From positions 1 to 20,179 of IMG/VR virus record IMGVR_UViG_3300042451_000626: 20,179 bases of DNA, one strand, 5' to 3'. Below are positions 14,541 through 20,179 of this stretch, piece by piece. How positions within the stretch are numbered: the first letter of the stretch is position 1; the number at the start of each line of letters is the position of its first letter. Under the pieces are notes generated by a model. That model did not search any database and was not told where the DNA came from. It was given only the letters and a program-made list of their open reading frames with translations. Source of the stretch: a virus. The position numbers were made by a program, and so were the translations under genes.

Positions 14541-14912
14541 TTATTTTAACTTGTTTATCTGATCACGATACTCAATGGACTTTTCAAATTCTTGATTCTT
14601 TATTGATTCGTCTAATTTAGATTGTAGTTCAAATATTTTTTCTTTATTCTCCTCCAATTTTTTTATCTTATCTCGTAACTCAACAGCTTCCTCAAAATTT
14701 TGATCTTCTATTGCCAAAATTAATTTATCTTTTAAATCAATCAAATCATCACCTTCAGTTTTACGAGTCATGTAGGTATAGGAAAAAGATCCATCTGAGG
14801 ATTTATAGGTTTTTTTAGTCCAATTCTTATCATCTAAAAATGATGAACTTAAACTCATTCGTTCTGAGAACATTTCATTAAAAATTTTATCAAAATTTCT
14901 AAAATTAAACAT
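14541..14912 (-). CDS. Protein with two UVR motifs, possible ClpC adaptor
   Basis: The 123 residues contain two tandem UVR motifs: LKDKLILAIEDQNFEEAVEL.. (about 60-87) and LQSKLDESIKNQEFEKSIEY.. (about 96-123). UVR motifs are helical hairpins known from UvrB/UvrC, from McsA, and from the middle region of ClpC, where they mediate protein contacts. The N-terminal 50 residues have no cysteines, so the zinc fingers of McsA are absent. The gene is divergent from a ClpC-type unfoldase that carries a matching UVR motif at its own residues 283-304, with two palindromic operator-like sites between them. I infer an adaptor or regulator of that ATPase. The FNEMF..W..KTYKSSDGSFSYTYMTR N-terminus also resembles small phage proteins of unknown role. 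Confidence 0.8.
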   Translation of the reverse strand: MFNFRNFDKIFNEMFSERMSLSSSFLDDKNWTKKTYKSSDGSFSYTYMTRKTEGDDLIDLKDKLILAIEDQNFEEAVELRDKIKKLEENKEKIFELQSKLDESIKNQEFEKSIEYRDQINKLK

Positions 14913-14991: not shown

Positions 14992-15009
14992 GTTAGTATT
15001 TTTTTACCA

Positions 15010-15022
15010 TGACAATTTGTCA
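15010..15022. promoter_or_regulatory. Operator-like palindrome, copy 2
   Basis: TGACAA-T-TTGTCA is a perfect 6-bp dyad sharing the TGACA/TGTCA half-sites of copy 1. It overlaps a TTTG (15016-15019) that could be a Bacteroidota -33 element, with TAAACTTG (15037-15044) one mismatch from the TAnnTTTG -7 box. Binding would then repress the ClpC gene. The promoter reading is weak. Confidence 0.55.
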
Positions 15023-15074
15023 AAAGGTATACTTTTTAAACTTGATTTACTATTTTTTAATAAAACAAAAAGAT

Positions 15075-17135
15075 ATGATTGAATTTATGGATGAAAACGA
15101 TAAAGGTAAAAAAAAGACCGATGGGGGAACACCAGTTTTAGATAACTTTAGTAAGGACTTAAATAAATTGGCAAGTGAAGGAAAATTAGATCCTGTAATT
15201 GGTCGTGAAAAGGAAATTTTTAGAATTGCACAAGTATTATCTCGTAGAAAGAAAAATAACCCAATAATCATTGGTGAGCCAGGTGCGGGTAAAACTGCAA
15301 TTGTTGAGGGACTTGCAATGATGATACATAATGGTCAATGTCCAAAAAATTTATCAGATAAAAGAATCGTATCTTTAGATATTAACTCTATTGTTGCGGG
15401 TACAAAATATAGAGGTCAATTTGAGGAAAGAATGAAGATTATCATTGAGGAACTTCAAATGGCCCCAAATATCATCATCTTCATTGATGAGATCCACACA
15501 ATGGTTGGTGCTGGTAATAGTTCAGGTTCTTTAGACGCATCTAACATATTCAAACCTGCATTATCTCGTGGTGAACTTCAATGTATTGGGGCAACAACTT
15601 TAGATGAGTATCGTAGACATTTTGAAAAAGATGGAGCATTAGAAAGAAGATTCCAAAAAATTGTTATTGATCCATCTACCAAAGAAGAAACCTTTGAAAT
15701 CCTTAAACAAAGTAAGGGTAAATATGAAGAACATCACAAAGTTAACTATACTGATGAGGCATTGTTATTATGTGTAGAATTGGCAGATCGTTATATCACA
15801 GATCGTGAATTTCCTGATAAGGCGTTTGATATTTTGGATGAGGTTGGATCAAGAATGCAAATTGACATTAAACTTCCTGAAATTATTGAAAAATTAAAAC
15901 AGGATGCTCAAGACATTAAAAAAGAAAAGGTAAATGTCATTAAAAAACAAAACTACGAACAAGCAGCAGAATTACGTGATAAAGAACGTAAAATTTTAAC
16001 TGATTTGGAAAACGAAAAGAAAAAATTTGACAATGAACTTAAAACAAGTAAACGTGGTATTCCAGAAGAGATAATTTATGAGGTAGTTTCAAATATGACT
16101 AAAATACCTGTAAGTAAGATAAATATTGATGAGAAAAATTCTTTAGTTAATTTAGAATCAACATTAAACACTAACGTTATTGGTCAAGAAGAAGCCGTTG
16201 GTAAAATATCTAAATCAATTAGAAGAAATCGTGTTGGAATTAAAGATCCAAATAGACCTATCGGTTCATTCATCTTTTTAGGGTCTACAGGTGTTGGTAA
16301 AACATTCTTAGCAAAACAATTAGCAAAAGAAATATTCGGTAGTGAGGATAATCTTATCCGTGTGGATATGTCCGAATACCAAGAAAAACACACAATATCA
16401 AGATTAATTGGATCTCCTCCAGGATATGTAGGACACGAAGAAGGTGGACAACTTACAGAACAAGTTAAAAACAAACCTTATTGTGTTATTTTATTTGATG
16501 AGATTGAGAAGGCAAATAAAGATATATTTTCAACGTTATTACAGATGTTAGATGATGGACATCTAACTGATGGGTTAGGTAGAAAGATCAATTTCAAGAA
16601 TTGTTTGATTATCATGACATCTAACATTGGTGTTAGAAAATTACAAGACTTTGGTACAGGTGTTGGTTTCAAATCAAGTAACTCAAGTGAAGTTGTCCAA
16701 GAAGAACAAAAAAGAGATGTTCTTAAAAAAGAACTTAGTAAATTTTTCGCCCCTGAATTTTTAAATAGAATTGATGATGTTGTTATATTTAACTCTCTAA
16801 ATAAAGATAACATTGATAAAATTGTAAAATTAGAAATTGATATTTTAGTTAAAAGACTAAAATCTATGAAGTATAATTTCACATATGAAAATTCAATAAT
16901 TGATTTAATTTCAAAAGTTGGTTTTGATGAGATATTTGGGGCAAGACCAATTAAAAGAGCAATTCAAAATAAAATAGAAGATTTAATATCTGAAAAAATC
17001 TTAACAGGTGAAGTTACAGAAAACAAAGATTATAGGTTATTTGTTAAAACAGAAAATGATGAACAAATAATTGATCTTGAAGAAAAAGTAATAATGGAAC
17101 CTAAGAAAAAAGTTAGAAAGAAAAAGGGAGAATAA
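15075..17135 (+). CDS. clpC: ClpC-type AAA+ unfoldase lacking the Clp N-domain
   Basis: A double-ring AAA+ unfoldase of 686 residues. D1: Walker A GEPGAGKT (67-74), Walker B IIIFIDE (133-139), pore loop KYRG (111-114), arginine finger ERRF (190-193). A UVR/middle segment follows (about 283-304, KEKVNVIKKQNYEQAAELRD). D2: Walker A GSTGVGKT (403-410), Walker B VILFDE (471-476), pore GYVG (450-453), sensor-2 GARP (622-625). A VGF tripeptide (530-532) sits where ClpC and ClpA carry the ClpP-docking loop, so it is not ClpB. The usual ~150-residue Clp N-domain is absent: the protein starts just before TPVLDNF, the D1 entry. The start at 15075 is preferred over an in-frame ATG at 15009 because the latter lies in the operator palindrome and has a poor N-terminus. 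Degradation would need host ClpP; none is seen here. The tail is Lys-rich. Confidence 0.93.
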   Translation: MIEFMDENDKGKKKTDGGTPVLDNFSKDLNKLASEGKLDPVIGREKEIFRIAQVLSRRKKNNPIIIGEPGAGKTAIVEGLAMMIHNGQCPKNLSDKRIVSLDINSIVAGTKYRGQFEERMKIIIEELQMAPNIIIFIDEIHTMVGAGNSSGSLDASNIFKPALSRGELQCIGATTLDEYRRHFEKDGALERRFQKIVIDPSTKEETFEILKQSKGKYEEHHKVNYTDEALLLCVELADRYITDREFPDKAFDILDEVGSRMQIDIKLPEIIEKLKQDAQDIKKEKVNVIKKQNYEQAAELRDKERKILTDLENEKKKFDNELKTSKRGIPEEIIYEVVSNMTKIPVSKINIDEKNSLVNLESTLNTNVIGQEEAVGKISKSIRRNRVGIKDPNRPIGSFIFLGSTGVGKTFLAKQLAKEIFGSEDNLIRVDMSEYQEKHTISRLIGSPPGYVGHEEGGQLTEQVKNKPYCVILFDEIEKANKDIFSTLLQMLDDGHLTDGLGRKINFKNCLIIMTSNIGVRKLQDFGTGVGFKSSNSSEVVQEEQKRDVLKKELSKFFAPEFLNRIDDVVIFNSLNKDNIDKIVKLEIDILVKRLKSMKYNFTYENSIIDLISKVGFDEIFGARPIKRAIQNKIEDLISEKILTGEVTENKDYRLFVKTENDEQIIDLEEKVIMEPKKKVRKKKGE

Positions 17136-17150: not shown

Positions 17151-17936
17151 TTAGTGTTTTTCGTAACCTAATTCCTCAATCATCATCTTACCAACTTTAA
17201 TTCCATTGTAAGTGTCCTCTACGACCACATATTCGTTTCTTGTATGGTAGTTGTAGTATCCAATAGATATATTGAAACACGGGATGTTAAACATAGTTCT
17301 AATTGGGTAAATGTCTGTGTAAGGATGTTTGTGATATTTCGTATCAGATGGAAAGTGTTCTGTAATCAATCGTCCACCAACTTCAAAGAATTTACTATCA
17401 CGATCAAACATACTTCTTCCCATCAAGAACTCAGAAATCATATTATTCTCAGGAGCGTCAAATTGAATCCCATAACCAACATTTGTGAAAAACTCAGGAT
17501 CCGCCTTAAATGAACCTTTACAACCTGTTTCCTCAGATACAAAAAACGCAGCTTTTAAATTAGGTAGTTCATTCAACAATTCCAAACAACCGTACACACC
17601 ACATTTATCGTCACCACCAATACCTGTTGGTTCGTCATTGTCGTTATACGCTTTTAATGATAATTTTACATTGCCCTGAGCGTCAGGTAACATTTCTTCA
17701 AATACATTAATTGTATCAATGTTATGTACCGTATCGGTATGTGCCATCACACAAGGGAAATATGATACGTTTTCATCGGTTTGTTTTGTTGCATAAATGT
17801 TTGACATTTCGTCAACATAAAAGGGAATATTGTTTTTGGTCAACCAATTTGTGATAAATTGAACCATTCTTTCTTCCTGATAAGTTTTAGTGGGTACAGA
17901 TAATACCTCCTTCAATAATTCATAATTTCGTTCCAT
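17151..17936 (-). CDS. Short M20-type zinc metallopeptidase
   Basis: This is a co-catalytic zinc aminopeptidase or dipeptidase of the M20 (PepT-like) group or a near relative. Expected ligands are in order: H66 in VMAHTDTV, D109 or D110 in GIGGDDKCGVY, the catalytic E135 and zinc-binding E136 in FFVSEETGCKG, D160 in IQFDAPEN, and H231 in NYHTRNEY. With 261 residues it is about 120-150 shorter than PepT or carboxypeptidase G; the gap between D160 and H231 (71 residues) is too small for the usual dimerisation/lid domain, so this is a minimal single-domain form. The substrate is probably small peptides. Next to a Clp unfoldase it could finish the breakdown of ClpP products (inference). A host-like TATATTTG box lies four bases upstream of ATG 17936. 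Confidence 0.85.
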   Translation of the reverse strand: MERNYELLKEVLSVPTKTYQEERMVQFITNWLTKNNIPFYVDEMSNIYATKQTDENVSYFPCVMAHTDTVHNIDTINVFEEMLPDAQGNVKLSLKAYNDNDEPTGIGGDDKCGVYGCLELLNELPNLKAAFFVSEETGCKGSFKADPEFFTNVGYGIQFDAPENNMISEFLMGRSMFDRDSKFFEVGGRLITEHFPSDTKYHKHPYTDIYPIRTMFNIPCFNISIGYYNYHTRNEYVVVEDTYNGIKVGKMMIEELGYEKH

Positions 17937-19337: not shown

Positions 19338-19389
19338 ATAAAATAAATATCAAAAAATTTTGATTATTGTAGGTTTACACTTATCTTTG

Positions 19390-19420: not shown

Positions 19421-19830
19421 GGGGGTGTTTTTGGATTTGACAGGTATTGGCTGAAGACAAAGGGCACGTGGAGACTGAATTAATCTCCTTAAAAACTGAT
19501 TCACAAAAACAATCGGCGACGTTTTATCGAAAATGGAAACTCTTGGTTTACTAAGAGAATCTGAAGTTACTGTAGCCTAAGAGGTTTACGGAAACGGGGG
19601 GTCGGTGGACACATAACCTAGCAACAGAAGTCTTTATGGTGGAATACGATTGAACCATAAATCGAGTCGTCCATTGGTTGTTGATTTACGATGGTGAAGA
19701 ACAAATCAACTTTGTTTTTGGTCAAATTAAAACCAAATATTTTGGGGTATTAGAAAATACCAACCTAAACGTGTAGTCCTTATCTGACAGGATATTATGG
19801 ACCGGAGTTCGAGCCTCCGCACCTCCACCA
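19421..19830 (+). ncRNA. ssrA: tmRNA (transfer-messenger RNA), one-piece
   Basis: The ends pair as a tRNA-like acceptor stem: GGGGGTG at 19421-19427 with CACCTCC at 19820-19826, then A-CCA encoded at 19827-19830. The T-arm is CGGAG-TTCGAGC-CTCCG (19803-19819). The 5' side has the tmRNA signature TGGATTTGACAGG. A PK1-type stem GGAGA (19470-19474) with TCTCC (19484-19488) precedes the resume site. The mRNA-like frame runs 19515-19580, followed by the usual pseudoknot-rich region. The RNA rescues stalled ribosomes with SmpB and tags the nascent protein for proteolysis; no smpB is seen in the window. Length (410) is typical (350-420). It is flanked by a TATTTATA motif and a terminator, so it is a stand-alone transcription unit rather than a degraded remnant. 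Confidence 0.95.
19515..19580 (+). other. tmRNA tag reading frame (21 residues, then TAA)
   Basis: By alignment with Bacteroidota tmRNAs, the resume codon is GGC in CAATC-GGC-GAC. The frame gives a 21-residue tag starting GDVLSK, with METLGLLR in the middle and ending ESEVTVA before TAA. Bacterial tags are typically about 8-15 residues and end in ALAA or similar; the -TVA end is atypical, as is the length, though long tags are known in other phage tmRNAs. Frame choice relies on the conserved context and the stop position; other frames hit stops or lack the GGC start. Confidence 0.8.
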
Positions 19831-19835
19831 AATGT

Positions 19836-19863
19836 AAACCTCATCTTCGGATGGGGTTTTTTT
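19836..19863 (+). terminator. Terminator after the tmRNA
   Basis: AAACCTCATC, a TTCG tetraloop, GATGGGGTTT and a T-run: a 10-bp stem with one G-T pair, starting six bases after the tmRNA CCA end. Confidence 0.92.
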
Positions 19864-19936: not shown

Positions 19937-20179
19937 AAAAAAAACCTGAGATTACAGTTTTCGTAAGTGTCTTTCGAGTCATTATTGGTTCTACTCTTAT
20001 CCACAGGATTTTGTCCTGTAACACTCATTACCGATTGGTTAGACCAATCACTCCTTGACGATACAACTACTCTCTTACTACTCCTGTCTCCCCAAGATTG
20101 CGTCCTGGTTCGGTCTTCGACGACCTAGAGATTTTTCATAAAAATACGGTCAAACTTGCGGTTATCACGTTCCACTGAC
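19937..20179 (-). ncRNA. Candidate structured RNA (right end outside window)
   Basis: No convincing gene fills this stretch. On the minus strand it holds a series of hairpins: ATTTTT/AAAAAT (20131-20145), GGTC/GACC with loop GTCGAA (20112-20125), CCAGG/CTTGG with a 7-base loop (20092-20108), GATTGG/CCAATC (20033-20049) and ACAGGA/TCCTGT (20003-20019). An outer stem TGAGTGTT (20020-20027) pairs with GACACTTA (19964-19971). Between 20030 and 20129, 49 of 100 bases are G or C, high for this A/T-rich window. It ends in CTCAGG plus eight T residues (19937-19944) and a terminator follows. The alternative is the end of a protein (17 codons to a TAG at 20125-20127), with the RNA as its 3' part. Large phage RNAs such as GOLLD or ROOL often lie near tRNA-like genes, but I cannot match this to either. 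Confidence 0.45.

Follow-up and report, generated by a model that had tools for sequence, protein, structure and literature searches.

A tmRNA with a long, conserved tag peptide in a lineage of T4-like phages that very probably infect Bacteroidota

The stretch of viral DNA analysed here, hereafter the window (20,179 bases; IMG/VR virus record IMGVR_UViG_3300042451_000626), is a fragment with T4-like head genes. It carries an intact tmRNA gene whose tag, 21 residues ending in -EVTVA, is under selection at the peptide level, to judge from codon comparisons among relatives. The lineage is very probably one of large T4-like phages of Bacteroidota. The reading that we favour, at about even chances, is that this is a functional phage tmRNA whose tag would be a phage-specific degron directing proteins to ClpP, possibly via a ClpC-type unfoldase encoded nearby. 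On the question of what tmRNA does for phages, the present family provides a large lineage in which the tag is both selected and distinct from the sampled Bacteroidota tags.

Structure of the tmRNA

The following features belong to the tmRNA locus of the window.
19421..19830, + strand: tmRNA (ssrA) gene, one-piece, with encoded CCA (RF00023, 105.8 bits, E 8e-41)
19470..19503, + strand: pseudoknot PK1, 19470-19474 pairing with 19484-19488 and 19476-19482 with 19497-19503 (covariation)
19515..19580, + strand: tag open reading frame, GDVLSKMETLGLLRESEVTVA followed by TAA, with resume codon GGC (codon-position entropy, pN/pS)
19803..19819, + strand: T-arm of the tRNA-like domain, the site of a group I intron in some relatives
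19359..19389, + strand: putative Bacteroidota-type promoter, TTTG at 19359-19362 and TATCTTTG at 19382-19389 (TAnnTTTG in relatives)
19836..19859, + strand: intrinsic terminator, downstream of the tmRNA

A first-pass annotation, made from the letters of the window, had described the tmRNA as intact, and all the parts that it listed (acceptor pairing, T-arm, encoded CCA, PK1 and terminator) were found. The covariance model RF00023 aligns from end to end (model positions 1-374) with 105.8 bits against a gathering score of 47, and confirms the ends at 19421 and 19830 exactly. ARAGORN, which had been proposed as a further check, reports no gene and leaves the window tmRNA uncalled.

The termini, 5' GGGGGUG and 3' CACCUCC-A-CCA, form an acceptor stem with a G3-U70 pair, the identity element for alanine. 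With the T-arm and the CCA, this pair gives the window tmRNA an alanine-type tRNA-like end, for which charging is predicted from sequence. Among the matches listed, G3-U70 is kept in 121/122 detected relatives, the exception being a 307-nt misdetection from locus L117, and CCA is encoded in 79/122. Around the constant G3-U70 pair the acceptor stems covary (GGGGGUG, GGGGAUG, GGGGGUA, GGGUCCG, GGGCCCG and others).

PK1 was assessed in 41 of the 72 distinct 5' segments, after removal of 16 that were divergent and 15 that were similar. In this sample, 99.6% of the cells are paired and 79 cells are changed on both sides, and none of 500 shuffles reaches either value. Two of the five measures lie within the shuffle range, namely the pairs changed on both sides (reached by 79/500) and the further pair types (491/500).

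Some relatives have unusual structures. A deletion in the tmRNA of L008 begins in the middle of the tag and reaches close to the 3' domain; it is either real or a misassembly. In L034 the 5' acceptor GGGGGUG is unpaired with a 3' UAGGUCC of another acceptor type, so that this RNA is either recombinant or misassembled. L143, L157, L160, L164, L170 and others have the T-loop AGUCGGA or AGUCAGA rather than UUCGANN, many of them together with the acceptor GGGCCUA.

Sampling of the family

Relatives were collected from IMG/VR by several routes, and the resulting counts refer to its closer members. Searching with a 5'-end pattern of the tmRNA retrieved 118 stretches, 114 of which belong to the family by sequence (L057, L067, L106 and L110 fall outside); two loci, L024 and L038, stop short of the tag, and 5 further ones break off within it. 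A pattern for the tag end retrieved at least 120 stretches, and the same tag type is present in all 81 loci newly fetched in this way among the matches listed. For the third route the window's Clp protein served as query, and the best 80 loci were kept. Further tags were obtained from matches to RF00023, which is blind to the tag sequence.

Pooling of the routes yields at least 279 tag occurrences (overlapping loci included) and at least 62 distinct tags. The detected full-length tmRNAs number at least 122 distinct sequences with 51 distinct tags, or 121 once the L117 misdetection is removed. Among the matches listed, 84 of the 279 tag occurrences lack a full structure by the search expression; most of these are explained by contig ends, introns or T-loops outside the expression, and L034, L302 and L307 are exceptions. 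No named phage was placed in the family by blastn of the tmRNA or by tblastn of two tags, which at 21 residues are weak tests, and Flavobacterium phage immuto gave no tmRNA match.

The tag peptide and its reading frame

The tag frame consists of 21 codons (19515-19577), from the resume codon GGC at 19515 to the stop at 19578-19580, and the peptide GDVLSKMETLGLLRESEVTVA ends in -EVTVA, just as it had first been read. This length is the rule: among the complete tags obtained via the 5'-end pattern, which is blind to the tag (window included), 107/108 have 21-22 residues, and the odd one is that of L008 with its deletion.

The frame was examined with 77 distinct 63-nt tags, among the matches listed. 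Mean entropy at codon positions 1, 2 and 3 is 0.88, 0.41 and 1.18, respectively. The pN/pS ratio, whose pair counts depend on kinship among the tags, is 0.57 in the tag frame as against 0.80 and 1.66 in the two others, and these off-frames hold 10,867 and 5,341 stop cells. The concern, raised with the initial reading, that a covariance model might put the resume codon in another frame can be set aside, since model and codon comparison agree on this one.

Constraint varies along the tag. The pN/pS ratio is 0.46 for codons 1-4, 0.60 for codons 5-10, 0.30 for codons 11-13 and 0.36 for codons 17-21 at the tag end, and codons 14-16 are free (1.07). It is thus codons 11-13, G-L-[ILV], and 17-21 that are most strongly constrained. 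The conserved body can be written G-x-[VTI]-[LIF]-x-[KN]-[ML]-x-x-x-G-L-[ILV].

The tag ends seen are EVTVA, EVSVA, AVVA, AVIA, ISVA, VAVA, VNVA, VEVA, VVAA and, rarely, EVTVS. The search expression required V, I or A as the penultimate residue and A or S as the last, and under this condition 60 of the 62 distinct tags among the matches listed end in Ala and 2 in Ser, with Val penultimate in 60. A charged residue is present in the last two positions of 0/62 and in the last three of 1/62 distinct tags, again among the matches listed. The 107 tags obtained through the 5'-end pattern, which ignores the tag, show the same end pattern as those found by the expression. The canonical ssrA degron end, -LAA or close, is absent from the window tag, which ends in -EVTVA.

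Host assignment, promoter and host tags

The host is very probably a member of the Bacteroidota. This assignment is based on the promoter box, a Pedobacter-like Clp, the terminase match to phage immuto and the T-loop introns described below. The window Clp is 56% identical to Pedobacter homologues, in 3/3 genomes, and the best named match of the terminase is Flavobacterium phage immuto, at 27%.

The promoter-like motif noticed upstream of the tmRNA proved to be recurrent. TAnnTTTG is the consensus of the Bacteroidota -7 box, and TATCTTTG at 19382-19389 fits it. Within -60..-20, TAnnTTTG is present in 104/122 distinct detected members among the matches listed, compared with 8.3 on average and 17 at most in 200 shuffles, although this excess does not stand for 104 independent events because the members are related. 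A sigma-70 scan gave hits no commoner than in shuffles (1 vs 2.9).

Host tags were read from the best-scoring 30 tmRNA loci of 40 genomes in the class of Pedobacter. In 26/30 loci they have 8-10 residues and end in -AA, 24 of these in -ALAA or -AMAA; of the remaining loci, two have no ARAGORN call and two give odd peptides. The Bacteroidota ssrA (e.g. that of Pedobacter, with the tag GENNYALAA) shares with the phage RNA its one-piece RF00023 architecture, a Gly resume codon and a similar 5' end. In contrast, the phage tags, with 21-22 residues, have another body and another end. It had been remarked at the outset that the tag end is not the usual -ALAA, and this holds against the sampled Bacteroidota tags. 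The end type EV[TS]VA, the only one searched, occurs in 0/395 Bacteroidota genomes.

The ClpC-type unfoldase and the syntenic gene block

The following protein genes were noted, two in the window and three in related records.
15009..17135, + strand: ClpC-type AAA+ unfoldase without N-domain, with a ClpP-docking VGF loop (best PDB matches are ClpC)
17151..17936, - strand: M20/PepT-like peptidase between clpC and the tmRNA (phrog_4191, E 8e-34; below the Pfam and NCBIfam cut-offs)
Record G108, 68265-68786 and 138238-138636: ClpP and SmpB
Record G101, 167371-167898: ClpP

The first of these is the phage ClpC that had been recognized in the initial reading. Residues 28-675 align on ClpC residues 149-792 in the best PDB matches; two AAA+ modules, a pore loop and a ClpP-docking loop are present, with a weak UVR match in the short middle domain, and there is no N-terminal domain. 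The ClpC structures of Staphylococcus aureus, Bacillus subtilis and Mycobacterium likewise comprise both AAA+ domains, a short UVR-bearing middle domain and the ClpP loop, but the phage proteins are without the N-terminal domain. Among the matches listed, all 72 distinct phage Clps have the KYRG pore loop, 67/72 have a [VILM]GF ClpP loop (the other 5 are unreadable by the anchor), and the stretch before the first AAA+ module is 35-69 residues long in the 70/72 where the anchor was found.

Just upstream of clpC, at 14541-14912 of the window on the - strand, lies a gene for a small UVR-motif protein. The ClpC partner McsA carries similar UVR motifs. In two records (G069, 31847-35469; G108, 149257-152894) clpC is interrupted, in both at profile position 223/224, by about 1.7 kb of sequence that is probably an intron.

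A Clp of phrog_4871 is encoded in 23/23 records examined, that of the window included. A direct test of the effect of the tag on protease choice is therefore feasible, a selected tag and a ClpC-type unfoldase being available together. ClpP is found in 2/23 and SmpB in 1/23 of these records, which may be fragments, so that most members would need host partners. One record, G108, combines tmRNA, SmpB, ClpC and ClpP.

When loci were ascertained through Clp (best 80 loci), the tmRNA was found downstream on the same strand in 48 of the 50 with at least 5 kb of room, about 2-5 kb from ClpC, the tag expression accounting for 35 of them and RF00023 for 13. This argues against the window being a chimera. 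No tmRNA was found at the other two of these 50 loci: L317 may end before it, and L341 has both the gene block and the room. The Clps of LR756502 and LR745206 are 56-58% identical to that of the window, and these records have no tmRNA over the cut-off; LR756508 carries a tmRNA.

The order portal, TerL, NTase, KTSC, Clp, M20, tmRNA forms a syntenic block, and in the best 80 Clp loci NTase is a neighbour in 77, KTSC in 78 and the M20 peptidase in 76. The linkage of clpC and tmRNA was rejected as functional evidence, since the genes to either side are conserved to a similar degree. It is unspecific because the block is syntenic as a whole.

Possible fate of tagged proteins

Under the favoured reading, SmpB (the host's in most members) and the phage tmRNA would, in infected cells, release ribosomes that have stalled on broken mRNAs. 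Alanine and the phage tag would be added in place of the host's 9-residue -ALAA tag. With moderate confidence, the tag may be regarded as a phage-specific C-terminal degron, composed of a nonpolar end (mostly VxVA) and a conserved body that would serve as recognition element. The conserved nonpolar end argues for proteolysis, and the conserved upstream body for a recognition element beyond the end. Tagged chains would then pass to the ClpP protease, possibly via the phage ClpC and not via host ClpX and adaptors. An unfoldase without adaptor domain would need a direct signal, which makes the N-domain-less ClpC with its ClpP loop a candidate reader. That the phage ClpC reads the tag, as the first-pass annotation had suggested, is plausible, but its co-location with the tmRNA is no proof, the whole block being syntenic.

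A more far-reaching version of this proposal is a private quality-control channel, in which the phage ClpC would read the tag body, so that stalled chains, of phage and host alike, would reach ClpP without the help of host ClpX or of the adaptors of ClpX and ClpC. We hold this version tentatively, and more probably than not it goes too far. At least one member, G108, carries the full set that such a channel would use (tmRNA, SmpB, ClpC and ClpP). As to whether phage proteins avoid ends resembling the tag, VA ends number 0, compared with 1.5 per interior position (1,232 ORFs), and a looser ORF set has tag-like ends in 1/1,673, in both instances too few cases to judge by.

Alternatively, the tag may be a divergent ssrA degron of ordinary trans-translation, read by host ClpXP or ClpAP, the phage ClpC serving for disaggregation or acting on other proteins. 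LVA is an active ssrA variant end in E. coli. The phage tag ends are nonpolar and nearly always Ala-final like host tags, one relative even ending in -VVAA, and general synteny accounts for the neighbourhood of Clp and tmRNA. However, neither the length of the phage tag is explained in this way, nor the constraint on upstream residues that host tags do not have, above all codons 1-13 (pN/pS 0.46, 0.60 and 0.30). We consider this alternative possible but somewhat doubtful.

It had been proposed initially that the tag is selected for a different fate of tagged proteins, such as slower decay. The first part is borne out to the extent that the peptide is under selection and unlike the sampled host tags; a stabilising or decay-slowing role is unlikely. 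An end other than -LAA, and Ser as last residue in 2/62 distinct tags among the matches listed, could be taken to favour it. However, with a pN/pS of 0.36 the final five codons rank with the most constrained ones, and among the matches listed the ends are nonpolar, nearly always Val-Ala, and uncharged in the last two positions of all 62 distinct tags and in the last three of all but one. An end of this kind, nearly always Val-Ala, is more in keeping with a degron than with a stabilising signal.

It is quite improbable that the tag has a non-proteolytic role, or that the RNA acts chiefly by occupying SmpB and the ribosome at the expense of host tmRNA. The conserved tag body might form a helix, to judge from its residues, but a non-proteolytic role has no known partner, and competition alone would not maintain a 21-residue peptide. 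An artefact, either a chimera with a bacterial ssrA locus or a wrong frame, has a negligible chance. The silence of ARAGORN on the window could be taken to favour it; against it, this tmRNA recurs with its phage gene block on many independent contigs, and the codon evidence is frame-specific.

Relation to known phage tmRNAs

ARAGORN detects 40/121 distinct full-length members among the matches listed; for these 40 its tag is exact in 11, shortened in 24 and wrong in 5. It follows that surveys based on ARAGORN undercount phage tmRNAs and misread their tags. The long uncultured phage record LR756511.1, which we take to come from the study of huge phages cited below, has an ordinary tag, ANPEFAMAA, unlike those of the present family.

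Several complete phage tmRNAs are known, and in completeness the present family resembles them. The available portions of the respective papers describe those of the mycobacteriophages Bxz1, Catera and Wildcat and of Bacillus phage G (PMC4131195), and that of the marine phage Melnitz, together with an ARAGORN count of 402 of 18,146 phage genomes (PMC9004378). A 2025 tmRNA database, as far as its available text goes, holds 79 bacteriophage sequences, draws its viruses from RefSeq and gives 10 as the commonest tag length (PMC11915505). In the portions available, the sources of the earlier surveys are RefSeq or collections of isolates, and ARAGORN is at least part of the method, whereas the present family comes from IMG/VR and is mostly missed by ARAGORN. 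Huge phages with tmRNA and SmpB are described in the available part of PMC7162821; phage-borne components of trans-translation are common to them and to the present family. The word Clp is absent from the main text of that paper.

Within the open-licence literature, the lineage, the long peptide-conserved tag and the company of a trimmed ClpC seem to be new. The searched tag strings led to no paper there, and the accessible parts of PMC10747093, PMC9723777 and PMC5587285 contain nothing bearing on the tag.

GOLLD RNA and T-loop introns

A second structured RNA adjoins the tmRNA.
19943..20179, - strand: GOLLD RNA, 3' part, convergent with the tmRNA and cut at its 5' side by the contig end (RF02032, 174.4 bits)

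The score exceeds the gathering cut-off of 150, and the RNA ends 112 bases from the tmRNA, tail-to-tail. GOLLD is above cut-off in 37 of 100 related records (100 of the 114 family records from the 5'-end pattern were covered). In 38 places in relatives it is on the opposite strand in 38/38; if the tmRNA end is approximated by a point 400 nt after the start, 30 of the places are no more than 2 kb from it and 34 no more than 5 kb, and 4 are far away. According to the available part of PMC12286853, GOLLD RNAs form cages and are frequent neighbours of tRNA islands, and ribosome binding has been reported for them.

Group I introns (RF00028) of about 200 nt interrupt the tmRNA T-loop in 13 of 14 relatives scanned, which had been picked for their long 3' spacing (L013, L058, L060, L068, L099, L119, L144, L165, L169, L200, L205, L209 and L221). 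T-loop group I introns in tmRNA are already known, and the subsite between T-loop residues 2 and 3 is, according to the available text and if the numbering is correctly matched, reported only from Bacteroidia (PMC11915505). This is the insertion site in several of the relatives; L205 and L221 may use another subsite.
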